From NCBI GenBank assembly GCA_030537495.1, contig JAUNMH010000005.1, forward strand, positions 1-64,000: DNA of 64,000 bases, read 5' to 3'. This document shows positions 28,736-42,189 of this stretch, one piece after another. Position 1 is the stretch's first letter; every line of letters starts with the position of its first letter. The translations under genes were made by a program, and so were the position numbers. The notes beneath the pieces are model-generated. The model ran no database searches. It was not told the origin of the DNA and saw only the letters and a program-made list of their open reading frames with translations. The stretch comes from Clostridia bacterium. GTDB lineage: Bacteria; Bacillota; Clostridia; Peptostreptococcales; Anaerovoracaceae.

Positions 28736-31700
28736 ATGAAGGAAATGAAGCAAAAGCCAATGTCAAGAGTGTTGGCACTGCTACTGGCATTCACTATGAT
28801 TTTCACCATGATGCCTGGAATGGTCTGGGCAGATGATGTAGCCTCTAATGTAGTGACTGTTAGCAGTAGTGAAAACTTACCTAGCACAATTGATGCGGGT
28901 ACAACTGTAAAACTTGACGCAGATATTACCTTGGCAAGTGGACAGCAGATTGAAAACTTAGAAGGCGTACTTGATGGTCAAGGCCATACAATTACCCTGG
29001 CAGACAAGCCTTTGGCAAACGATGTAAAGGGTACTATACAGAATCTGCTAGTAACATCTGATGATGTAATTAAAGATTCAAAGACATTTGGAGCCATGGC
29101 GGTAACTCTTACAGGTACTATTAGAAACTGCGGATGTATCGCGAAACTTGAATTAGAAGGATGGAATGGAAGTGTTGGAGGGGTCGTAGGTGCCTTCAAC
29201 GATGGAATAATCCAAAATGTATATTTTGCAGGTAGCGTTGTTGATTATGAAGGTGGTATCGCTGGTGAGGTTCAAAAAGGGACCAAAGCGCACAATTCGT
29301 ACTACACAATAGGATTAGGCCCTAATACAAATTGTGAAACAAAAAACTGCGAAAAGGTAAAAGCAGATGACCTAAAAGCAGGTAAGATTAACAAAAAGCT
29401 TAACAATGATTTACCTGACACTGGATTCTATTGGGCTAGCCCTGATGAAGGAACCGGTTTTCCGATATTAAAGCTTGGCAAACCACCTGTTGCAAAAGAA
29501 GAACTCGTAGAGAAAATTGCAACAGCGAAGAAGATTGAAAATGACAACTATACTGATGCAACTTGGAAAAAACTGCAGGATACAATCGCAGAAGCGGAGG
29601 TACTTGCAGGTGAAGAAACTGTTACGCAGCAACAAGTTGATGATATGGTTTCCAAGCTAAGTGATGCAATTAGCGGGTTACTTAAGAACAAAATAACCGA
29701 GCCAGTTGCACCACCTGAAGATGAAAAAGAAATTAAACACATTAAGACGGCAGATGAACTACAAAATATCAAAAGCCCAGGATATTATGTGCTAGATAAT
29801 GACTTGACGCTGGGAGATGAAATGTACTGGGCAGAGAATACCTTTAACGGAGTGCTTGAAGGTAATGGACACACGATAACCCTAAAGGACTCATTTACTG
29901 GTATGTTCGATAGCGTAGGACCTGATGGAGTGGTGCAGAACTTGCATATAACTGGCAGCTCTGATATGGCTAAAGGAAGTGTTGCCCACAACAGTTTAGA
30001 AGGTGTTATCATTAACTGTTTCATAGACGCAACTGGAGCAAATGTCTCTGGATTTACTGAGACACTTAAAGGTGGGGCTATCGTAAATTCTTACTCAGTA
30101 AGTAAAGCGAAAAATGGAGTTTTATTTAAAAGATATGAAAAAGGATACCTAAAGAACACTTACTGGAGAGAAGATTTATCAAGTTCTGCAATTGATAATA
30201 TTTCAGAAGAAAATTTGATCAACTCAGGTGCAAAACTTGACTCTGAACTGAAGAGCGGGGATTTTGTAGAATTACTTAATGCCAATCGCGGAACATACGG
30301 AACGAAGTGGGGGCAGAATGCAGAAACTGGTTATCCATACTTTGGTGAGAACCAGCAATATGTACCAGAATGGGAGCGTCCAGTTCCAGAAAACAAGACA
30401 GCAGTTTCATTTAAAACATGTAATGGCAAGAGCTCAGTGATAGAAAATCAGCAACTGACGGTTAATCTTAACTCAACGAAGAACAAGTGGGCGGGAGATT
30501 TTGAACTGCCAGGATATAATTTGAAGGAAAATGAAAAAATTACTTGGTCTATATCCACGGAAGAACCTGAGGGGACTGGTGCTATTGGTGAGGATAAAGG
30601 AAACCTCCATGTATACAAAAGAGGAAGACTAAAAGTTGTTGCGACTCTGCACAAAGCTGACAACACTACAGAGGTTCTGGCAACGATAAAGGTTACAGTT
30701 ATTAAATCAGCAGTTGACGGGATCCAGCTTTGTTTAGCTGATGAAAAAGGCGAAAATGTAGTGGCTGTTACAGATGGGAAAGCCACAGTGCAGGGATCCG
30801 AATGGAAAAAAGTGGTTGTTAAAGCTAAGTCAGCCGGCGAGTCTGAATATCAAGTGTTGGCTTCGGACGCATACAATCTTGAGTTTATAGATGGAACTGG
30901 AAAAGTATTTCGTATGGATGAAAAATCAAAGGATTTCCAATTTACTAGCCCAGGTACAGCTAAAATCAAGGTGACATATAATAATGATAAAAATAGCGAT
31001 AGCATCACTGCAACTGCAGAAATCACTTCAACTTACGTCCCACTTAAATCCATCAAACCAGGAATCAGTGGCACAATTACTCTTCATGGCAGGAACGCAA
31101 ACAGCGATGGTGGTAAGGACTTTAACGCAAACTATGCTGGCGTTATCGTAACACCAAGCAATGCCAGCGTTTGTCACTACAACACAAAGTACAAAATAAC
31201 AAGCAGCGACAAGACTGTGGGCGAGTATATTGACTATCTTGTAAAGGGCTATGTGCCATACAAGGCAGGAAAAGTAAAATATACGGCATCAGTAGAAGAC
31301 AATGGCAAAACTATCTCAGGTTCATCTGACGTTGAATATGTTTACAAGAATCCGCTGAAATATATTACAGTAAATAATAAGAGACTGACTGTTGAAGCAA
31401 ATCAGAGCATTCCGGCAGGTCTAGTATTCCATGGTGCTCTAAATGATGGTCATGAAGTATCTGACACAACTATGGAATGGACATACAGCAAGAATGGAAT
31501 CGTTACAATCGAACGAGAAAATGGCGGTTTTAAGAGAGACGAAAATGCTCCGGACAACAACCAGTATTTCCTAAGTAGCGAATATACAATTCGCGGACTA
31601 GAAGAAGGAACCGTAACTGTAACGGGTACGCCAGTAGATAAAACAGGTGGGGCTAGTGCAGTAAGTTTTGATGTAACTGTTACTCCGGGAGAAGCTGAGG

Positions 31701-34700
31701 AACCTGTAGATAGCGACGCGCTAATCGCGGCAGGCCTTACAGATGCAAAAAACTTCTGGAAGTCCAAGAACGCTAAAGAAATGGCAAGCTTCGGCAACGA
31801 GTGGTACTTCTTCTCATTGTCACGTGCGGGCGTTTCCATAGATTCCAAGGCGGTTGAAGACTATCTTGCCTCAGTGGCGAAGGCATACACAACAGATTTC
31901 GACAACGACAAAGCCAACAAGCTTAAGCCAACGACAATTGCGCGTACAATTCTAGCCGTAGGCGCTTTAGGCAAGGACCCGGCAAACGTTGGCGGAGTAA
32001 ATCTTATTGAGATGCTTTACAACAGCGATAAAATTAGCGACGGCGGAAACGAAGCTATGTGGGCACTTATTGCTTTAAATAGTGGAAATTACACCGTTCC
32101 AGCTGACGCAAAATGGAACAGCGAAAAACTGGTTACGGAAATTCTTGAATACCAGTCAAAGGATGAGAAAGGATTCTCATGGTCAGGTAAGGGTGCAAAG
32201 GCTGACATTGACGGAACAGCTATGGCAATTCAGGCGCTAGCACCTTATTACAAGAACAATGAAAAGGTTAAGAAAGCAGTCGATGGAGCTCTGGAATATC
32301 TCAAAGATAAGATGAACAGCAACTGCCAGTTCGGAACATCAGAAGCGGGCGCACAGGTTTTGATCGCCTTGACTTCTTTAGGAAAAGATCCTCTTAATAA
32401 AGAAAATGGCTTCGTTAAGAGTGTAGCAAGAAACCTGGTTACAGGTCTGGACGCGTACAGAATTGAAGGCAGAGGCTTCAAGCACTTGCTGACAGATTCT
32501 TCCTCTAACAATATGGCAACACAGCAGGCTCTTCTAGCTCTTGAATCATGCAGAAGACTTAAGGCGGGAGAGGCGTCAATTTACGACATTACTGATCTTG
32601 ACCTTAGAAAAACTTTAGAAAATCGTGTAGCTGAAGCCGAAGCGTTAAAGGAAGATTACTATAAGGCAGACTTATGGAAGACAATGGTTGAAGCTAAGGA
32701 CGCCGCAAAGGCAGTCCTTGCAAAGGCAGGGGCTACTGACGAAGAACTTAAGGCTGCGGACAAAACTCTTGCAGACGCTTTATCTGCTCTTTATGTTTAC
32801 AACCCTAACCCAGGTGTTGCAGCAGAAGATATCATTGTTAACATAACAATTGCAGAGCAGGGCAAGTTAGCCGTTGGACGCTTCGAGGATGAAAACGTTA
32901 CAATTGGTGCTATTCCAATTACTGTTCAGGATAGAAACAAAGACGGCAAGCAGGACATCGATGAAGTTCTATATGCTCTTCATGAAAAATATTATGCTGG
33001 CGGCGCAAAGGCTGGCTACGCATGCGATTCAAACGGCTGGCTGAAGATGCTATGGGGGAAAGACGCTTCTGCATCAGGCATGTGGGTTAACAACATTTCA
33101 GCTGGCACTGGTGCAAAAGACACTGTAAACGCAGGCGACAATGTTTCAGTATTTACATACAAGGACACGTCAAAATATAGCGATAAGTTTACTAAGTTCG
33201 ACAAGAACGAATATAAAGTAACTGCAGGCGAAGACGTAAATATGAGCCTGGAGGCTGCTCGTTTTGATGAAAATTATCAGACTGTATGGGAGCATGCGGG
33301 CAGCGTGACAATCAGTCTTCTGAATGGTCGCGTACTGGGCACAACTGGCGCTGACGGTAAGGTGAAACTTTCCGGACTAGCGCAGGGAACACACAAGGTT
33401 ATAGCAAGCGCAGCTGACGGCCTAACAGTTCCAGCTGTTGCAACAATCGTGGTAAGAGACCCACAGGCACCGCAGGACAAGGTTTCCGTAAGCGTTGTAG
33501 ATCCAAACGGCAAAACCTACTTAGCTAAAACAAGCTACGACTTTGAAGCTGGAGACACAGCACTGTCCTTACTTGCAAAAACCAACTTAAAATACACAGC
33601 AAAATATTATGGTATGTATGGTGGATACTATGTAAGCGAAATCGAAGGTCTAGCTGAATTTGACAAGGGACCTAAGAGTGGCTGGATGTATAAGGTAAAC
33701 GGCTCCTTCCCGGGAGTTGCATGCTCTGAGTACAAACTAAACTCTGGCGACTATGTTGAATGGCTATACACTACAGACTTGGGCAACGACATCGGCGCAC
33801 CATCTGAGTCAAAGGGCGACGTAACAACTTCCGGCGGCGCAGTTGGCGGTAACGTAACTTCTTCACCTACGGAAGTAACAGTTTCTAACAAAACCAACAC
33901 AGACGGAACTACTGAATCTACAGCGGTTGTAACTGTTAAGAAGGAAAACCAGGAAGAAATCATCAAGCAGGCTAAGGAAAACAATTCCAAGGATATCGTT
34001 CTAGATGTTGCAGCATCTGACTCAAAGGGTGCAGACAATATTCAGTTAGAACTTCCTAAGGATATGGTAAATTCAATTGTTAAGGAAACTGAAGCTACTG
34101 TAACTGTTAAGTCAGAACAGGGTGAAATGACAATTGACAAGGAAACTTTAATTCAGATTTCAAAGGAAGCAAAGGGAGCAACTGTTGTTGTTAATATTAA
34201 CAAGGCTAAGACTGCAACAGAAGGACAGAAGAAGCTAACTGGCGAAAACACAACTGTTTACAAGCTAACTGTTAAATCAGGAAACGATGTAATCAGCCAG
34301 TTCAATGGTAAGGTTACTGTTAAACTTCCAATCCCTGCAGCACTTCTAGATAAGAAGGTTGCAGCAGTTCACTTCGACAGTGCAGACAAGTTCACAGAAA
34401 TGACTGGTAAGAGAGTAAGCGTATCTGGTGAAGAATACTACGTATTTGATACTACACACTTCAGTGAATTCGGACTAGTTGATGCTAAGGAAGCAGGAAT
34501 TGCAGGGGATGAACCTGGCAAGGACGACAAGCCAGCTAAGGTTGATAAGGTCAAGGAAGCAAAGGAGATTGCTTCTAAGATGAATCTTACAACAGTTGCA
34601 ACAAAGACAAAGAAGAAGACTGTAAAAGTTAACGTTAAGATGACTAAGAAGACTAAGACAGACATTAAGGCACTTAAGAAACTTGGTTACAACGTTAAGT

Positions 34701-34906
34701 ACAGTTTCTACCGTTCAACAAAGAAGAACGGAAGCTATAAGGTAGCAGCGACTAAGAAAGCAAACACTTACACTTATACTAAGGGTAAGAAGGCTAAACG
34801 TTACTACTACAAGACTCAGGTTCGCGTATACGACAAGAAGGGCAAGTTAATCACAAAGACTACTCTTAAGAACAGCAAGTACGCAAGCAGAGTTTGGGTT
34901 AAATAA
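28736..34906 (+). CDS. Giant exported protein with beta-helix, FIVAR, toroid and transcobalamin-like (DUF4430) domains
   Basis: This 2056-residue protein has a signal peptide (about 1-33, ending MVWADD). In order come a beta-helix/GLUG-like region (to about 240), a FIVAR-like helical module (250-320), a second beta-helix region (335-560) and Ig-like domains (565-985). An alpha/alpha toroid homologous to the 26419 protein follows (990-1290), then a second FIVAR module (1291-1360). A DUF4430-like beta domain (about 1361-1482), an Ig-like stretch, a clear DUF4430 domain (about 1582-1687, with GWMYKVNGSFPGV) and a ZU5-like region come next. A Lys-rich C-terminal domain (about 1935-2056) is shared with the 26419 protein. 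Toroid plus DUF4430 matches the two-domain plan of intrinsic factor and transcobalamin. A B12 riboswitch lies upstream. An AAGGAAAGG ribosome site precedes the ATG. No sortase signal is seen. Cobalamin binding is inferred. Confidence 0.82.
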   Translation: MKEMKQKPMSRVLALLLAFTMIFTMMPGMVWADDVASNVVTVSSSENLPSTIDAGTTVKLDADITLASGQQIENLEGVLDGQGHTITLADKPLANDVKGTIQNLLVTSDDVIKDSKTFGAMAVTLTGTIRNCGCIAKLELEGWNGSVGGVVGAFNDGIIQNVYFAGSVVDYEGGIAGEVQKGTKAHNSYYTIGLGPNTNCETKNCEKVKADDLKAGKINKKLNNDLPDTGFYWASPDEGTGFPILKLGKPPVAKEELVEKIATAKKIENDNYTDATWKKLQDTIAEAEVLAGEETVTQQQVDDMVSKLSDAISGLLKNKITEPVAPPEDEKEIKHIKTADELQNIKSPGYYVLDNDLTLGDEMYWAENTFNGVLEGNGHTITLKDSFTGMFDSVGPDGVVQNLHITGSSDMAKGSVAHNSLEGVIINCFIDATGANVSGFTETLKGGAIVNSYSVSKAKNGVLFKRYEKGYLKNTYWREDLSSSAIDNISEENLINSGAKLDSELKSGDFVELLNANRGTYGTKWGQNAETGYPYFGENQQYVPEWERPVPENKTAVSFKTCNGKSSVIENQQLTVNLNSTKNKWAGDFELPGYNLKENEKITWSISTEEPEGTGAIGEDKGNLHVYKRGRLKVVATLHKADNTTEVLATIKVTVIKSAVDGIQLCLADEKGENVVAVTDGKATVQGSEWKKVVVKAKSAGESEYQVLASDAYNLEFIDGTGKVFRMDEKSKDFQFTSPGTAKIKVTYNNDKNSDSITATAEITSTYVPLKSIKPGISGTITLHGRNANSDGGKDFNANYAGVIVTPSNASVCHYNTKYKITSSDKTVGEYIDYLVKGYVPYKAGKVKYTASVEDNGKTISGSSDVEYVYKNPLKYITVNNKRLTVEANQSIPAGLVFHGALNDGHEVSDTTMEWTYSKNGIVTIERENGGFKRDENAPDNNQYFLSSEYTIRGLEEGTVTVTGTPVDKTGGASAVSFDVTVTPGEAEEPVDSDALIAAGLTDAKNFWKSKNAKEMASFGNEWYFFSLSRAGVSIDSKAVEDYLASVAKAYTTDFDNDKANKLKPTTIARTILAVGALGKDPANVGGVNLIEMLYNSDKISDGGNEAMWALIALNSGNYTVPADAKWNSEKLVTEILEYQSKDEKGFSWSGKGAKADIDGTAMAIQALAPYYKNNEKVKKAVDGALEYLKDKMNSNCQFGTSEAGAQVLIALTSLGKDPLNKENGFVKSVARNLVTGLDAYRIEGRGFKHLLTDSSSNNMATQQALLALESCRRLKAGEASIYDITDLDLRKTLENRVAEAEALKEDYYKADLWKTMVEAKDAAKAVLAKAGATDEELKAADKTLADALSALYVYNPNPGVAAEDIIVNITIAEQGKLAVGRFEDENVTIGAIPITVQDRNKDGKQDIDEVLYALHEKYYAGGAKAGYACDSNGWLKMLWGKDASASGMWVNNISAGTGAKDTVNAGDNVSVFTYKDTSKYSDKFTKFDKNEYKVTAGEDVNMSLEAARFDENYQTVWEHAGSVTISLLNGRVLGTTGADGKVKLSGLAQGTHKVIASAADGLTVPAVATIVVRDPQAPQDKVSVSVVDPNGKTYLAKTSYDFEAGDTALSLLAKTNLKYTAKYYGMYGGYYVSEIEGLAEFDKGPKSGWMYKVNGSFPGVACSEYKLNSGDYVEWLYTTDLGNDIGAPSESKGDVTTSGGAVGGNVTSSPTEVTVSNKTNTDGTTESTAVVTVKKENQEEIIKQAKENNSKDIVLDVAASDSKGADNIQLELPKDMVNSIVKETEATVTVKSEQGEMTIDKETLIQISKEAKGATVVVNINKAKTATEGQKKLTGENTTVYKLTVKSGNDVISQFNGKVTVKLPIPAALLDKKVAAVHFDSADKFTEMTGKRVSVSGEEYYVFDTTHFSEFGLVDAKEAGIAGDEPGKDDKPAKVDKVKEAKEIASKMNLTTVATKTKKKTVKVNVKMTKKTKTDIKALKKLGYNVKYSFYRSTKKNGSYKVAATKKANTYTYTKGKKAKRYYYKTQVRVYDKKGKLITKTTLKNSKYASRVWVK

Positions 34907-37001: not shown

Positions 37002-37394
37002 CTATTTTCTCTTGAAATCCTTAGGAGTTACACAAGTTCCTGTTGCTCTAGCAACAACGATTGGTTCTTCTAAGAAGTCAGCAGCTGAAGCGTTGATGTC
37101 TTTTCTTGAAACGATAACTTTTCTAGCTTCAAATTTCATCTTTCTTGAAGTGTTTCCGATCTTAGTGATTTCCCCGTAAGCTTCGATGTAGTCACCAGCG
37201 TAAGTTGGAGCTAAGAATTCTACGTTGTCATATGCGCAGAATAAACCTTCGTCACCGTCTAACTTGATTAAAAGTTCAGTAGCAACGTCACCGAAAAGGT
37301 GAACCATGTGAGCTCCGTCTACTAATTCTCCACCGTAGTGAGCGTCTTTAGCGGACATTCTTACTCTGATTAATGATGTGATTTTCTCTTCCAT
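37002..37394 (-). CDS. kal: 3-aminobutyryl-CoA ammonia-lyase (hotdog fold)
   Basis: Kal removes ammonia from L-3-aminobutyryl-CoA to give crotonyl-CoA in lysine fermentation. The 130-residue hotdog protein begins [24 protein letters not shown] and ends in a Lys-rich tail. I chose the ATG at 37394 because AAGGAGAAC lies just upstream on the minus strand; the longer ORF from 37457 starts in the promoter. It is divergent from the regulator and points away from the rest of the lysine cluster. Length and position in the cluster fit known Kal. Confidence 0.88.
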
Positions 37395-37446
37395 TGGTCT
37401 GTTCTCCTTTATGTTATAATGTAATATCAATAAATATATCTTCTTT

Positions 37447-37475
37447 AGTATACACATAAATCAAAACGGTGTAAA
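37447..37475 (-). promoter_or_regulatory. SigmaA promoter of kal
   Basis: On the minus strand TTTACA (37475-37470) and TATACT (37452-37447) are 17 bp apart. It sits back to back with the regulator promoter, whose -35 starts 7 bp away. Confidence 0.7.
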
Positions 37476-37481
37476 TAATAT

Positions 37482-37510
37482 TTGCAAAATATCTGAGAAG
37501 GTTGTATTAT
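37482..37510 (+). promoter_or_regulatory. SigmaA promoter of the lysine-cluster regulator
   Basis: TTGCAA (37482-37487) and TATTAT (37505-37510) are 17 bp apart, which places the transcript start near 37517. That is after the first possible ATG (37515) and supports translation from 37566. Confidence 0.65.
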
Positions 37511-37524
37511 TGATATGAAAAGGA

Positions 37525-37575
37525 GTGAACCGAAATGTGTTCACAAAGAAAGGTTTGAAACGAATATGGCACAAA
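37525..37575. promoter_or_regulatory. Putative operator in the regulator leader (one strong, one degenerate site)
   Basis: GTGAACCGAAATGTGTTCAC (37525-37544) is a 20-bp palindrome with arms GTGAAC/GTTCAC. A degenerate copy, TTGAAACGAATATGGCACAA, starts exactly 31 bp later (37556-37575) and overlaps the chosen start codon. The strong site lies at about +8 to +27 of the predicted transcript, a repressor-like position, suggesting autorepression. Confidence 0.55.
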
Positions 37576-39635
37576 ACTACGGCACAAACAGGGTACTCGA
37601 GCCTCAGTATGTTTTGCCCACCTCCGCTTGGAGACTGGACAACAGCAGACGCCTCAACCCCGAAGAGATACGCGTAAATGTGAAAAAAATTCATATAGAA
37701 GGTACCAGCTTCAAGGAAATCTGCCTGGAGGCTAACTACAACGAGCAGAAAATCAAGCAGATGATTTTGGACATTGTCATTCGTAGAGGCAAGCTGCACA
37801 ACCCGGTTACCGATACCGGCGGGCTGTTCTACGGCGTCGTTGACGAAATCGGCAAGAGTTTTCGCAACGCTAAAGGTTTTGTTGTTGGCGATGAGGTTGT
37901 GTGCAACGCCAGCCTTGCGTCGGTGCCTATTTACATAGAAAAAATTCTTTCTGTAGACCGCGCTTTCGGACAGATCGACGTGGAGGGGTACGCCATACTC
38001 TACGACGAAATACCCCTGGTATCAAAACCCCCAGAGGTTCCCACCAATATGTTGCTTTACACTCTGAACGAGTCGGGAACTCTGTACCGCATATCCACAG
38101 AGGCTGTTGGTAAGAAGAGGATATTAGTAGTAGGGAATAACCTGCTGTCTAACCTGCTATTTGGATACGCAATTCGAAGAGTGGCGAGAGACGATGCAGA
38201 AATAGTGTGTCTGCTAGACAGGAAGACGGATTATGTACTAAAAGGAAAAAGTATAGATGAACTGACTGAGAAGGTTTTTACCGAGGTGCATTATGTGGAT
38301 ATTTTGAAGCCGCTGGAATGTTTGACTAAGGTAAAAGCTGAGTCGTATTTTGACTTGTCGGTAAACTGTGCCGATATTCCAGGTGCGGAGACGATTAATA
38401 TTTTAGCAACGAAGAGTGGCGGAACTGTAGTATTCGCAAACCTAATCAACAACTACAACATCGCCCTTTATATCACTGAGTCAATTTCCAAACAGCTAGA
38501 AATCAAGTGCGCCGATGGTTACGTTGAAGCTTACGACGAATTTGACATTAGCATAGTTGAGGCCATGAATCCGTACATCAGTGATGCAATTGCATCGGAT
38601 CCAAGCATTAACGACGACCCGGCATATGCGTACACGAGAGAGTCTCGTATAATGGAAGCTTCTGGGCAGCGCCGAACCGTAATGAGCGATTTTGTCTGCG
38701 AAAGTAGAGCTATGGCTAAGGTTGTTGAAGATATTTTTAAAGCAGCTAAGTACGATTGTAACGTTTTGATAACGGGAGACTCCGGAGTAGGCAAGGCAAC
38801 CGTTGCATCAAGCATACATAAAAATAGTAGCAGAAAGATGCAACCGCTTATCAATATAAACTGCGCATCGATTTCTGCTAATATAATAGAAGCAGAATTC
38901 TTCGGAGTGGAGCGCGACGAAGAAAATGGAATTCAAGGGAAGAAGGGATATTTTGAGCTGGCTGACAAAGGAAGTATTTTCCTTAATGAAATAAATTATC
39001 TGCCTATGGAAATGCAGGCCAAGCTTCTGCGGGTAGTTCAAGATGGAGAATTCTACAGAGTGGGCGGAACCCAGCTGATAAAAACCGACGTAAGAATTCT
39101 TTGCGCCACCGATGGTACCCTAGAAGAGGACGTGGAAAACGATCGATTCAGACGAGATCTTTTCTATCAGTTAAATGTAGTAAAAATCAAGGTGCCTAAT
39201 TTAAGTGAGAGAATGGGCGACATACCGGCACTTGTAAGCTATTTCATCAGCAAATATAATAGGAAATACGAAATCAAGAGAAAAATGGACCCCGATGCCA
39301 TAGAATATTTGAAGCAGTGCGAGTGGCCGGGCAACATCAGACAGTTGGAAACTGTAGTTCAAAGACTTATGATTACGGCAAAGAGCGAAAAAATCTCACT
39401 TCTTGACGTAATGAGAGAGTTGCACGCCGATGTCTTCGATGGAGGCAACCCGTTACCTGAAGGGGCGAAAAATGATGCCGAGGGCGAAATTGACCTGGAA
39501 AAAATGGTAAACAATTTCGAGCGCACCCTAATAAAACATGCTTGCCAGCAGCATGGGTCTACGCGAAAAGCAGCCAAAGCCATTGGTATCAGTCAGACAC
39601 AGCTTGTTCGTAAAAAGAAGAAATACGGCATATAG
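37566..39635 (+). CDS. Regulator fusing a Kdd-like pseudo-dehydrogenase domain to an AAA+/Fis-HTH module
   Basis: The 689-residue protein starts at 37566, where MAQNYGTNRVLEP aligns with the first residues of Kdd. Residues 1 to about 345 are homologous to L-erythro-3,5-diaminohexanoate dehydrogenase throughout. However, the nucleotide-binding loop (GGGGKSG in both Kdd copies) reads GNNLLSN. Residues about 378-610 are a sigma54-activator-type AAA+ domain with Walker A GDSGVGKAT. Walker B reads IFLNEINYL, with Asn for Asp. The GAFTGA loop is absent (RDEENGIQG at that place), and the Arg-finger region reads FRRDLFYQLN. The C-terminus is a Fis-type helix-turn-helix (TRKAAKAIGISQTQL). Loss of GAFTGA is known from TyrR, which works with sigma70. 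It most likely senses a lysine-pathway intermediate and controls kdd and its own gene. Confidence 0.85.
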   Translation: MAQNYGTNRVLEPQYVLPTSAWRLDNSRRLNPEEIRVNVKKIHIEGTSFKEICLEANYNEQKIKQMILDIVIRRGKLHNPVTDTGGLFYGVVDEIGKSFRNAKGFVVGDEVVCNASLASVPIYIEKILSVDRAFGQIDVEGYAILYDEIPLVSKPPEVPTNMLLYTLNESGTLYRISTEAVGKKRILVVGNNLLSNLLFGYAIRRVARDDAEIVCLLDRKTDYVLKGKSIDELTEKVFTEVHYVDILKPLECLTKVKAESYFDLSVNCADIPGAETINILATKSGGTVVFANLINNYNIALYITESISKQLEIKCADGYVEAYDEFDISIVEAMNPYISDAIASDPSINDDPAYAYTRESRIMEASGQRRTVMSDFVCESRAMAKVVEDIFKAAKYDCNVLITGDSGVGKATVASSIHKNSSRKMQPLININCASISANIIEAEFFGVERDEENGIQGKKGYFELADKGSIFLNEINYLPMEMQAKLLRVVQDGEFYRVGGTQLIKTDVRILCATDGTLEEDVENDRFRRDLFYQLNVVKIKVPNLSERMGDIPALVSYFISKYNRKYEIKRKMDPDAIEYLKQCEWPGNIRQLETVVQRLMITAKSEKISLLDVMRELHADVFDGGNPLPEGAKNDAEGEIDLEKMVNNFERTLIKHACQQHGSTRKAAKAIGISQTQLVRKKKKYGI

Positions 39636-39713: not shown

Positions 39714-39745
39714 CGAGTGAACCATAAACGGTTCACTCGTTTTTT
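39714..39745 (+). terminator. Terminator of the regulator gene
   Basis: CGAGTGAACC (39714-39723) pairs perfectly with GGTTCACTCG (39730-39739), followed by six Ts. The stem contains one of the putative operator palindromes. Confidence 0.85.
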
Positions 39746-39767
39746 GTATGAACCGCTTTGTGTTCAA
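39717..39767. promoter_or_regulatory. Paired putative operators upstream of kdd copy 1
   Basis: GTGAACCATAAACGGTTCAC (39717-39736) and ATGAACCGCTTTGTGTTCAA (39748-39767) share the GAAC-N8-GTTC core. They start exactly 31 bp apart, about three helical turns. They lie about 45 bp upstream of the kdd promoter -35, where an activator could bind. Confidence 0.6.
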
Positions 39768-39811: not shown

Positions 39812-39840
39812 TTGACTGTTATGCCATTTTTGAATAAAAT
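39812..39840 (+). promoter_or_regulatory. SigmaA promoter of kdd copy 1
   Basis: TTGACT (39812-39817) and TAAAAT (39835-39840) are 17 bp apart. A strong GGAGG ribosome site lies just before the start at 39897. Confidence 0.75.
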
Positions 39841-39896: not shown

Positions 39897-40934
39897 ATGG
39901 AGTACAAGAAAGGTGACATTTACGGATCACACAGAGTAATCAGCCCAAAAGGAGTTCTTCCACAGCCGGCTGAAGTAATTGATAACACAATGGAAATCTA
40001 TGATAACGAAGTATTAATCGACGTTCAGACTTTAAACATCGACTCAGCTTCTTTCACTGAAATTTCCAGACGTTCAGATGGCGATATCGAAAAGATTAAG
40101 GAAACAATCATGGGTATCGTTGAAAAGACTGGTAAGCACAAGAACCCATGGACTGGTTCCGGCGGAATGCTTATCGGTACAGTTAAAGAAATCGGACCTA
40201 ACTTCAAGGGAGACCTAAAGGTTGGAGATAAGATTGCTACATTAGTATCATTATCACTTACACCACTGAAGTTAGATGAAATCTTAGAAATCAGACCTGA
40301 AATCGACCAGGTTGACGTTAAAGGACAGGCAATTCTGTTCCAGAGCGGAATCTACGGAATTCTTCCAGACGACATTCCTGAAAACCTTGCTCTTTCCGTA
40401 TTAGACGTTGCAGGTGCACCAGCACAGACTGCAAAGATCTGCCACCCAGGACAGACAGTAGTTATCCTAGGCGGAGGCGGAAAGTCCGGTATGCTTTGCT
40501 GCTACGAAGCAAAGAGACAGGTTGGAGTTAACGGAAGAGTTATCTGCGTAGACGGATTCGAATCTTCAATCGAAAGAGCTAAGAGCATCAACTGTGCACA
40601 CGACTACGTTGTAGCTGACGCTACTGATGCTGTTGCTATGTACAGACTAATCAGCGACCTAACTGATGGCGAATTAGCTGACGTTGTAGTAAACGTAGTA
40701 AACATCCCTAACACAGAAATGGCTTCAATCCTAGCATGTAAGGACGACGGTCTGGTATACTTCTTCTCAATGGCAACTTCATTCACTAAGGCTGCTCTTG
40801 GTGCTGAAGGTGTTGGTAAGGACGTTACAATGATGATGGGTAACGGATATACTAAGGGACACGCTAAGGTTGCTCTAGAAATCTTAAGAGAAAGCAAAGA
40901 AATCAGAGACTTATTTGCTAAGCTTTACGCTTAA
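39897..40934 (+). CDS. kdd: L-erythro-3,5-diaminohexanoate dehydrogenase, copy 1
   Basis: Kdd oxidatively deaminates 3,5-diaminohexanoate to 5-amino-3-oxohexanoate with NAD+ in lysine fermentation. The 345-residue protein has the family N-terminus (YGSHRVISPKGVLPQPAE), the Rossmann loop VVILGGGGKSG (about 185-195), and the conserved FFSMATSFTKAALGAEGVGKD segment near the C-terminus. The second copy follows at 41128 and is closely similar. The codon use is strongly biased, as expected for a highly expressed catabolic enzyme. Two putative operators and a sigmaA promoter lie upstream. Confidence 0.92.
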   Translation: MEYKKGDIYGSHRVISPKGVLPQPAEVIDNTMEIYDNEVLIDVQTLNIDSASFTEISRRSDGDIEKIKETIMGIVEKTGKHKNPWTGSGGMLIGTVKEIGPNFKGDLKVGDKIATLVSLSLTPLKLDEILEIRPEIDQVDVKGQAILFQSGIYGILPDDIPENLALSVLDVAGAPAQTAKICHPGQTVVILGGGGKSGMLCCYEAKRQVGVNGRVICVDGFESSIERAKSINCAHDYVVADATDAVAMYRLISDLTDGELADVVVNVVNIPNTEMASILACKDDGLVYFFSMATSFTKAALGAEGVGKDVTMMMGNGYTKGHAKVALEILRESKEIRDLFAKLYA

Positions 40935-40948
40935 TTCAGAAAATAACG

Positions 40949-40986
40949 GAACTGCAAAAGGTTAATTACTGAACCTTTTGCGGTTC
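40949..40986 (+). terminator. Terminator-like hairpin after kdd copy 1
   Basis: GAACTGCAAAAGGTT (40949-40963) pairs with AACCTTTTGCGGTTC (40972-40986) with one T-G pair. The following T-run is weak, so read-through into kdd copy 2 is likely. The right arm contains an operator palindrome. Confidence 0.5.
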
Positions 40987-41019
40987 GTTTGTGAGTCTTT
41001 CGAACCGATAATGGTTCGA
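40969..41019. promoter_or_regulatory. Paired putative operators upstream of kdd copy 2
   Basis: CTGAACCTTTTGCGGTTCGT (40969-40988) and TCGAACCGATAATGGTTCGA (41000-41019) share the GAACC-N6-GGTTC core. Their starts are 31 bp apart, the same distance as the pair before kdd copy 1. A TATAAT-like box follows at about 41089-41094 with a poor -35, which would suit an activated promoter. Confidence 0.6.
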
Positions 41020-41127
41020 AAAGGTTTTGGTTGAAGATAGTTGACTACGCAATTAATGCCTTTGTAGATTTTGCCTCTAGAATCATCTATAATTTAAGTA
41101 AGATTTATTTTTAGGAGGATTAAAATT

Positions 41128-42189
41128 ATGAAAAAAGGATGCCCATACGGAACACACAGAGTTATTTCTCCTGCAGGAGTTTTACCTCAGCCGGCAGATA
41201 AGATTGATAACACAATGGAACTATATGATAACGAAGTTCTAATTGATGTTAAGACTTTAAACATCGACTCAGCATCATTTACAGAAATTTGCAAGAGAGT
41301 TCTTAACAAGAAGCCTTCCGAAGTAACTACTCAGGAAGAAATGGATAAGATCGGTGCAAAGATGATGGAAATCGTTGATAAAGCCGGCAAACATAAGAAC
41401 CCATGGACTGGATCTGGCGGTATGCTTCTAGGTACTGTAGAAGAAATCGGACCAAACTACGTTGGAGATCTTAAAGTTGGCGACAAGATTGCTACATTAG
41501 TATCACTTTCACTAACTCCATTAAGAATCGACGAAATCGTTGCTATGAGACCTGCTATTGACCAGGTTGACATTAAGGGTAAAGCAATTCTGTTCCAGTC
41601 TGGTATCTACGGAATCATTCCTGACGATATGCCTGAAAAGACAGCTTTATCAGCATTAGACGTTGCAGGAGCACCTGCACAGGCTGCTAAGCTATGCCAG
41701 CTTAACCAGAAAGTACTGGTTATCGGTGGTGGCGGAAAATCCGGTCTTCTATGCTTATACGAAGCAAAGAAGAGAGTTGGAGTTAACGGTCTAGTAGCAT
41801 GCGCTGCTGGTTCACAGAAATCAGAAGATAGAGCTAGAGCTCTAGATTTAGCTGACGTATACTTCCACATGGATGCTACAGATGCAGTTGGAATGTATCA
41901 CAAGGCAATGGAAATTACTAATGGCGAATTATTCGACATCGTAATCAACTGTGTATCAATCGAGAACACAGAAATGGCTTCAATCCTTGCATGTAAGGAC
42001 GAAGGTACTGTTTACTTCTTCTCAATGGCAACTTCATTCACTAAGGCTGCTCTTGGTGCTGAAGGTGTTGGTAAAGACGTTAACATGATCATCGGTAACG
42101 GATACACTAAGGGTCACGCAGCTGTTACTCTTCAGTGCTTAAGAGAACATGAAGGATTAAGAAAACTGTTTGAAGAATTATATGCATAA
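41128..42189 (+). CDS. kdd: L-erythro-3,5-diaminohexanoate dehydrogenase, copy 2
   Basis: The 353-residue protein has the family N-terminus MKKGCPYGTHRVISPAGVLP, the loop VLVIGGGGKSG and the same C-terminal FFSMATSFTKAALGAEG segment as copy 1. It is slightly longer because of an insert after EICKRVLNKKPSEVTTQEE. A 62-bp stretch is identical in DNA between the copies, which points to recent duplication or gene conversion. A TTTTTAGGAGG ribosome site precedes the ATG. It is followed after 44 bp by kamA. The two copies may differ in expression or kinetic properties. Confidence 0.92.
   Translation: MKKGCPYGTHRVISPAGVLPQPADKIDNTMELYDNEVLIDVKTLNIDSASFTEICKRVLNKKPSEVTTQEEMDKIGAKMMEIVDKAGKHKNPWTGSGGMLLGTVEEIGPNYVGDLKVGDKIATLVSLSLTPLRIDEIVAMRPAIDQVDIKGKAILFQSGIYGIIPDDMPEKTALSALDVAGAPAQAAKLCQLNQKVLVIGGGGKSGLLCLYEAKKRVGVNGLVACAAGSQKSEDRARALDLADVYFHMDATDAVGMYHKAMEITNGELFDIVINCVSIENTEMASILACKDEGTVYFFSMATSFTKAALGAEGVGKDVNMIIGNGYTKGHAAVTLQCLREHEGLRKLFEELYA

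Follow-up and report, generated by a model that had tools for sequence, protein, structure and literature searches.

The window analysed here is a 64,000-nucleotide stretch of a Clostridia bacterium genome (contig JAUNMH010000005.1, positions 1 to 64,000). It contains a lysine-fermentation locus in which a regulator gene stands between the divergent kal and two copies of kdd, the gene of 3,5-diaminohexanoate dehydrogenase (Kdd). The regulator joins a Kdd-like half to the half of an enhancer-binding protein. The comparisons below make it probable that this protein is a ligand-responsive, GAFTGA-less regulator of lysine fermentation that acts at promoters of the housekeeping sigma factor (sigmaA), the product of a replicated switch from sigma54 to sigmaA. 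The features of the locus are collected in Table 1.

Table 1. Features of the lysine locus in the window
Feature	Position	Strand	Basis or comment
kal, 3-aminobutyryl-CoA ammonia lyase	37002..37394	-	NF052388; start by inspection
Putative sigmaA promoter of divergent kal, TTTACA-17-TATACT	37447..37475	-	-10 at +82 from operator centre
Putative sigmaA promoter of regulator, TTGCAA-17-TATTAT	37482..37510	+	read from sequence (putative)
Operator TGAACCGAAATGTGTTCA between kal and regulator	37526..37543	.	conserved ~31 bp before ATG in most orthologues
Kdd-domain / AAA+ / TyrR-type HTH regulator	37566..39635	+	689 aa; start set by the conserved ATG and the operator before it
Kdd-like sensor domain, with GNNLLSN for the cofactor glycine loop	37572..38558	+	alignment and predicted fold
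AAA+ (Sigma54_activat) module	38694..39191	+	profile match
DEENGI instead of GAFTGA, L1 loop	38916..38933	+	motif alignment
Asn codon instead of Walker B Asp	38985..38987	+	motif alignment, sequence
HTH_50 (TyrR-type) DNA-binding domain	39486..39632	+	Pfam PF18024, 5e-16
Distal operator upstream of kdd1, TGAACCATAAACGGTTCA	39718..39735	.	palindrome
Proximal operator upstream of kdd1	39749..39766	.	31 bp from distal
SigmaA promoter of kdd1, TTGACT-17-TAAAAT, no -24/-12	39812..39840	+	consensus elements
kdd1	39897..40934	+	NF052381
Distal operator upstream of kdd2	40970..40987	.	palindrome
Proximal operator upstream of kdd2	41001..41018	.	31 bp from distal
SigmaA promoter of kdd2, TAGATT-17-TATAAT	41065..41093	+	located where kdd1 geometry predicts; TATAAT 41088-41093
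kdd2, then kamA, kamB, kamC, kamD, kamE	41128..42189	+	NF052381 and Kam models

The reading frame of the regulator is intact. Mechanical open reading frame finding starts it at 37515, and the start at 37566 is preferred because its ATG is conserved across orthologues and an operator palindrome lies about 31 bp upstream, at 37526-37543. The same procedure extends kal over 37002-37457, which is probably too long, with a start near 37394. Pfam profiles assign the C-terminal half of the regulator to Sigma54_activat (PF00158, 1.3e-54), the AAA lid and HTH_50, the TyrR-type helix-turn-helix (HTH) domain (5e-16). The NCBIfam TyrR model gives 244 bits, far under its cut-off of 576, and the ACT/PAS sensor of the TyrR family proper has no counterpart in the protein, whose N-terminal half is Kdd-like instead. 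The fusion of the two halves, proposed in the initial annotation, is confirmed by alignments, by domain profiles and by its recurrence throughout the family.

Alignment with each of the two downstream Kdd proteins spans the entire N-terminal half (27% identity; BLASTP 1e-39 and 2e-38), which also matches the PDB 3,5-diaminohexanoate dehydrogenase 7DL3 (2e-24). The NCBIfam KDD model matches it at 7e-39 and 133.6 bits, below the cut-off of 200. The predicted structure, with a mean pLDDT of 82, matches 7DL0 with a TM-score of 0.81 by target length. The domain has the Kdd fold but not the cofactor glycine loop, which reads GNNLLSN against GGGGKSG in the downstream Kdds. Both the kinship with Kdd and the replaced loop had been read from the sequence in the initial annotation, and the alignment and the structure prediction that it called for agree with it. 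E310 and G323 of the substrate site (7DL numbering), the sites altered in deposited mutant structures according to the PDB entry titles, are retained in both Kdds and in the fusions. Since these two residues are kept while the cofactor loop is lost, a diamine-type ligand is suggested. In the proposed reading the domain descends from the pathway's own dehydrogenase, and its signal is most likely the diamine substrate or a closely related compound of the pathway, which it would bind without catalysis, as the initial annotation had proposed. Less probably, the domain is instead a scaffold or oligomerisation domain, or a sensor of the cofactor, which would otherwise be compatible with the rest of our interpretation. 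This alternative gains from the many other Kdd-conserved residues changed in the fusions besides the glycine loop, a point against metabolite sensing, and from distant fusions such as L043 (loci are given by L numbers) with a more cofactor-like loop, GANGKIG. It is countered by the conservation of E310 and G323, and by the Kdd-like domain being at least as well conserved as the remainder of the protein in most pairs compared. The N-terminal halves of L041, L042 and L043 are much nearer to Kdd (about 245 bits vs about 130), and the cofactor loop of L043 is near-complete; these proteins are candidates for early stages of enzyme-to-sensor evolution.

GAFTGA is absent from the AAA+ module of the window protein, where DEENGI is found, and Walker B reads LNE for LDE. 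Both losses had been described before, and no intact copy of either motif was detected. Two further losses had been missed, namely sensor I (ATN to ATD) and the second arginine finger (YYR to FYQ). The protein fits the GAFTGA-less type of enhancer-binding protein, an AAA+ fold with Walker A and without GAFTGA; it carries the Sigma54_activat domain but neither GAFTGA nor the full set of Walker B, sensor I and two arginine fingers. Sequencing error and pseudogene formation are ruled out, as the losses are common to three other genomes (L002, L003 and L004; 74-87% identity), with low nonsynonymous divergence (dN) and saturated synonymous divergence (dS). Among 87 orthologues Walker A is intact throughout, whereas the full set of Walker B Asp-Glu, sensor I Asn and arginine finger 2 is complete in 65/65 GAFTGA-bearing proteins and in 2/22 GAFTGA-less ones. 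The latter keep Walker A (22/22), arginine finger 1 (22/22) and sensor II (21/22). The dN in the AAA+ domain of GAFTGA-less pairs is 0.06-0.17 with dS saturated, so these proteins are under constraint; the saturation made most dN/dS ratios incomputable. From this pattern of motifs, the window protein would bind nucleotide and not hydrolyse it.

Among the 61 related genomes searched, every one of the same genus has the full-length fusion, and so do many other genera of the window's family. Scanning the contigs of genomes yielded 80 more loci, including those of Emergencia, Aminicella, Hornefia, Sinanaerobacter, Clostridium aminobutyricum, [Eubacterium] infirmum, E. minutum and Anaerovorax. In total, 100 distinct fusion proteins occur throughout the family, and two further families of the class also carry the fusion. 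The initial annotation had named a lack of fusion homologues in related genomes as an outcome that would speak against it, and the opposite was found. Because of this distribution across the family and beyond, the fusion is a stable protein family and not a local accident. Among named strains, Emergencia timonensis has GAFTGA, while Aminicella lysinilytica, Hornefia butyriciproducens, [Eubacterium] infirmum and E. minutum are GAFTGA-less.

GAFTGA or GSFTGA is kept in 65 of the 87 orthologues. GAFTGA is also found in more divergent fusions (GAFTGS in two) and in two fusions from other families. A maximum-likelihood tree, built without the motif columns and with GAFTGA-bearing outgroup rows, needs six changes to account for the 22 GAFTGA-less proteins; four of them are forced by well-supported branches, and bootstrap trees require five to six. 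A single origin of the loss occurs in 0% of the bootstrap trees. An independent-pairs sign test could not reach significance, with only four pairs on well-supported branches. By motif and tree, the family is one of ordinary GAFTGA-bearing sigma54 activators, and the GAFTGA-less state is derived and has arisen several times. The earlier proposal of a TyrR-like, sigma54-independent module acting at sigmaA promoters is supported for the window protein, which faces sigmaA elements at fixed positions and no -24/-12 promoter, but fails as a family trait, given the 65 GAFTGA-bearing members. Loss of GAFTGA through loss of sigma54 from the genome is ruled out, as rpoN is present in all but one of the searched GAFTGA-less genomes. 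The window's genome encodes at least six other activators with GAFTGA-like loops. Because rpoN and these activators remain, the sigma switch is local to the lysine locus. The sole searched GAFTGA-less genome without an rpoN match is that of L084 (G072), whose AAA+ motif set is among the most degraded; this genome may have lost sigma54 altogether or may be incomplete.

The type of promoter follows the GAFTGA motif across the relatives. A -24/-12 promoter lies upstream of the kdd behind the regulator in 54/54 assessable GAFTGA-bearing loci and in 0/17 assessable GAFTGA-less loci; the GAFTGA-bearing locus L095 ends before its targets and is outside this survey. At the divergent kal, the corresponding counts are 47/53 and 0/22, and the six GAFTGA-bearing loci without -24/-12 at kal still have it at kdd. 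A rule that fits the data is that GAFTGA would survive as long as at least one sigma54 target survives. In the window, -24/-12 promoters are absent at kdd1, kdd2 and kal, and sigmaA-type -35/-10 elements stand at fixed distances from the operators in both the downstream and the divergent promoters, which supports the sigma54-independent action predicted earlier. The window protein and its promoters appear to have been converted from sigma54 to the housekeeping sigma factor, in one of about six independent switches in the family.

The operators are palindromes of the form GAACC-N6-GGTTC, usually in pairs with a spacing of about 31-33 bp, and both kdd1 and kdd2 of the window have such pairs; the TyrR-type HTH domain would bind these palindromes. 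The genome has six exact palindromes, of which three belong to the lysine locus. A wide regulon was considered and rejected; near matches genome-wide are no commoner than those of a reversed control, and therefore only the local sites are claimed. The spacing between operator and promoter differs between the two promoter types. In GAFTGA-bearing loci, the distance from the kdd operator to the -24 element ranges from 49 to 304 bp and is enhancer-like. In contrast, in 17/17 GAFTGA-less loci of six lineages the best sigmaA -10 element is 75-79 bp away from the centre of the proximal operator, compared with 3/54 GAFTGA-bearing loci; the shuffled expectation for an interval of 76-80 bp is 3-5% per lineage. 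The centres of the two kdd1 operators of the window precede the -35 element by about 54 and 85 bp, and those of kdd2 similarly; promoter elements and fixed spacing are both seen in the sequence at these genes.

The same geometry occurs in some genomes that keep GAFTGA. In the Emergencia group and in L055-L062, the first kdd has a -24/-12 promoter, whereas the second kdd has none and instead has an operator pair with TAGACA or TGGACA-17-TATAAT at the same fixed distance; in L062, a single operator site is recognisable at the second kdd. Several of these genomes have both a -24/-12 and a sigmaA-type promoter at kal. In the kdd1 promoter of L005 and L008, TATAAT at +76/77 directly follows an intact -24/-12, and this is possibly an overlapping dual promoter. 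Since GAFTGA-bearing Emergencia-group genomes already show the fixed sigmaA geometry at the second kdd, a dual-mode ancestor is implied. The odds seem even that the GAFTGA-bearing ancestors were true dual-mode activators, in which a single protein on a single kind of operator pair served sigma54 at kdd1 or kal by ATP-driven remodelling and sigmaA at kdd2 by contact from a fixed position, and that repeated loss of the sigma54 targets left sigmaA-only regulators. The Kdd tree, a quick tree with many weak branches, suggests two routes of loss. In one route, kdd1 is gone, which leaves the regulator next to the sigmaA promoter of the kdd that remains (L014/L066-L069/L083, L070/L076/L078/L087, L111/L118 and L084). 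In the other, kdd1 is kept with a converted promoter (the window clade and L013). The sequence TTGGAATTTTTGCATTATAAT of L013 resembles a relic of TTGGCAC-N5-TTGC and is a possible relic -24/-12 promoter; automatic alignment places it ambiguously.

These observations can be joined in one proposed course of events. The ancestral form would have been a standard sigma54 activator, in which GAFTGA and ATP hydrolysis drove the -24/-12 promoters at kdd and kal. In one subclade, the same operator pair would also have become fixed upstream of the sigmaA promoter of a second kdd, and this second mode would be independent of GAFTGA and work via direct contact with sigmaA polymerase. The window lineage and about five others would then have lost their last sigma54 target, either by the disappearance of kdd1 or by promoter conversion. 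GAFTGA and the hydrolysis motifs would have decayed after that, without loss of Walker A, the first arginine finger, the HTH domain or the operators. Today the window protein would activate the sigmaA promoters of kdd1 and kdd2, and probably that of kal as well. It is also likely to repress its own gene, because its operator sits just downstream of its putative promoter.

Several points weigh against this course. The kal -24/-12 promoters of GAFTGA-bearing loci lie at a fixed 38-39 bp from the operator, and variable spacing is thus a property of the kdd promoters only. The sigmaA spacing at kal is less uniform, about +77 to +88. The kdd2 geometry may be shared by descent where kdd1 was lost, in which case the six lineages do not test the geometry fully independently of one another. 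Moreover, the -35/-10 matches are based on consensus, and several -35 elements are imperfect (TAGACA, TAGATT). The sigmaA promoters could also be constitutive, with another role for the operators. A related alternative is that the GAFTGA-less protein is a pure repressor, which blocks its own gene or represses from sites upstream of sigmaA promoters that are constitutive. TyrR acts mainly by repression (PMC1173090), and the operator just downstream of the regulator's own -10 element suits autorepression. However, the kdd1 and kdd2 operators are too distant from the -35 element for simple occlusion, their distance is held within a few bases over six lineages, and orthologous operators serve sigma54 promoters, which require an activator. 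A pure repressor is unlikely. That the promoters have turned constitutive and the regulator is a dying relic is very improbable; GAFTGA and most hydrolysis motifs have indeed decayed, but frames are intact, dN is low, Walker A, arginine finger 1 and sensor II persist, and operators and spacing are conserved. Least probable of all is a non-canonical loop that still activates sigma54 at promoters elsewhere, for which rpoN and operator-like palindromes in the genome (no commoner than the reversed control pattern) can be cited, against the missing GAFTGA, the changed Walker B, sensor I and arginine finger 2, and the lack of any remaining -24/-12 at kdd or kal.

Some observations on fusions outside these loci were also made. 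Emergencia-group genomes have a second, diverged Kdd-domain enhancer-binding protein elsewhere (L034-L040; about 36-39% identity to the window protein) with GAFTGA intact, and that of E. timonensis has CoA-transferase genes nearby; this second fusion may sense another diamine or amino acid. In L031 and L032, from another family of the order, two fusion regulators stand in tandem, and a -24/-12 promoter follows the second copy. At L045:7462-9523 (G031), the fusion is split into two overlapping frames, one for the sensor and one for the AAA+ module and HTH domain, and the downstream kdd keeps its -24/-12. In the window itself, upstream of the lysine locus, a 2056-residue open reading frame (28736-34906) with an N-terminal signal-like sequence resembles a large surface protein.

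What is known of how an activator leaves the sigma54 system comes, to our knowledge, from isolated end points alone, among them TyrR and the NtrC of Rhodobacter capsulatus. The window protein resembles TyrR of E. coli, a relative of the sigma54 activator PhhR, in its TyrR-type HTH domain and GAFTGA-less AAA+ module. TyrR serves sigma70 promoters and responds to amino-acid ligands, much as is predicted for the window protein, and a descent of TyrR from PhhR by loss of GAFTGA has been put forward (PMC1173090). In contrast to that of TyrR, the sensor of the window protein is derived from Kdd and not from ACT/PAS, and in the Kdd fusions about six separate losses are accompanied by a matching conversion of promoters, an apparent dual-mode stage and decay of the hydrolysis motifs. 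The NtrC proteins of R. capsulatus and Caulobacter are GAFTGA-less regulators of sigma70 promoters, and some GAFTGA-less enhancer-binding proteins reportedly work without ATP hydrolysis (PMC10274813). These NtrC proteins share with the window protein the lack of GAFTGA, and the housekeeping promoters that they regulate are of the type predicted for it, but they are two-component regulators controlled by phosphorylation, whereas the window protein has a ligand-type sensor from a pathway enzyme. PrdR and other clostridial amino-acid regulators are local sigma54 activators of fermentation operons (PMC6615313); the GAFTGA-bearing fusions belong with them, and the window member differs in lacking the sigma54 contact motif. 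The text of that survey, covering 263 clostridial enhancer-binding proteins in 39 groups, does not mention lysine (PMC6615313), and the lysine-fermentation papers examined describe no regulator of the pathway. Compared with Kdd itself (PDB 7DL0, 7DL1, 7DL3 and 7DL7), the regulator keeps the fold and the two substrate-site residues, but it has lost the cofactor loop, has only 27% identity to the window's own Kdds and continues into a transcription module.

The principle of operation is already known; what is new, to the extent that this could be checked, is the sensor, together with the repeated occurrence of the switch and its apparent intermediate. The family would add to enhancer-binding proteins a new kind of sensor domain, derived from an enzyme of the very pathway that is controlled, and the window protein is a candidate regulator for the anaerobic fermentation of lysine to butyrate. 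Among the relatives, several of them named strains, the switch is replicated about six times, and they also include an apparent dual-mode stage, -10 elements that overlap a -24/-12, and what may be a relic promoter (L013). With such replicates and intermediates at hand, the order and mechanism of a sigma-factor switch become directly testable.
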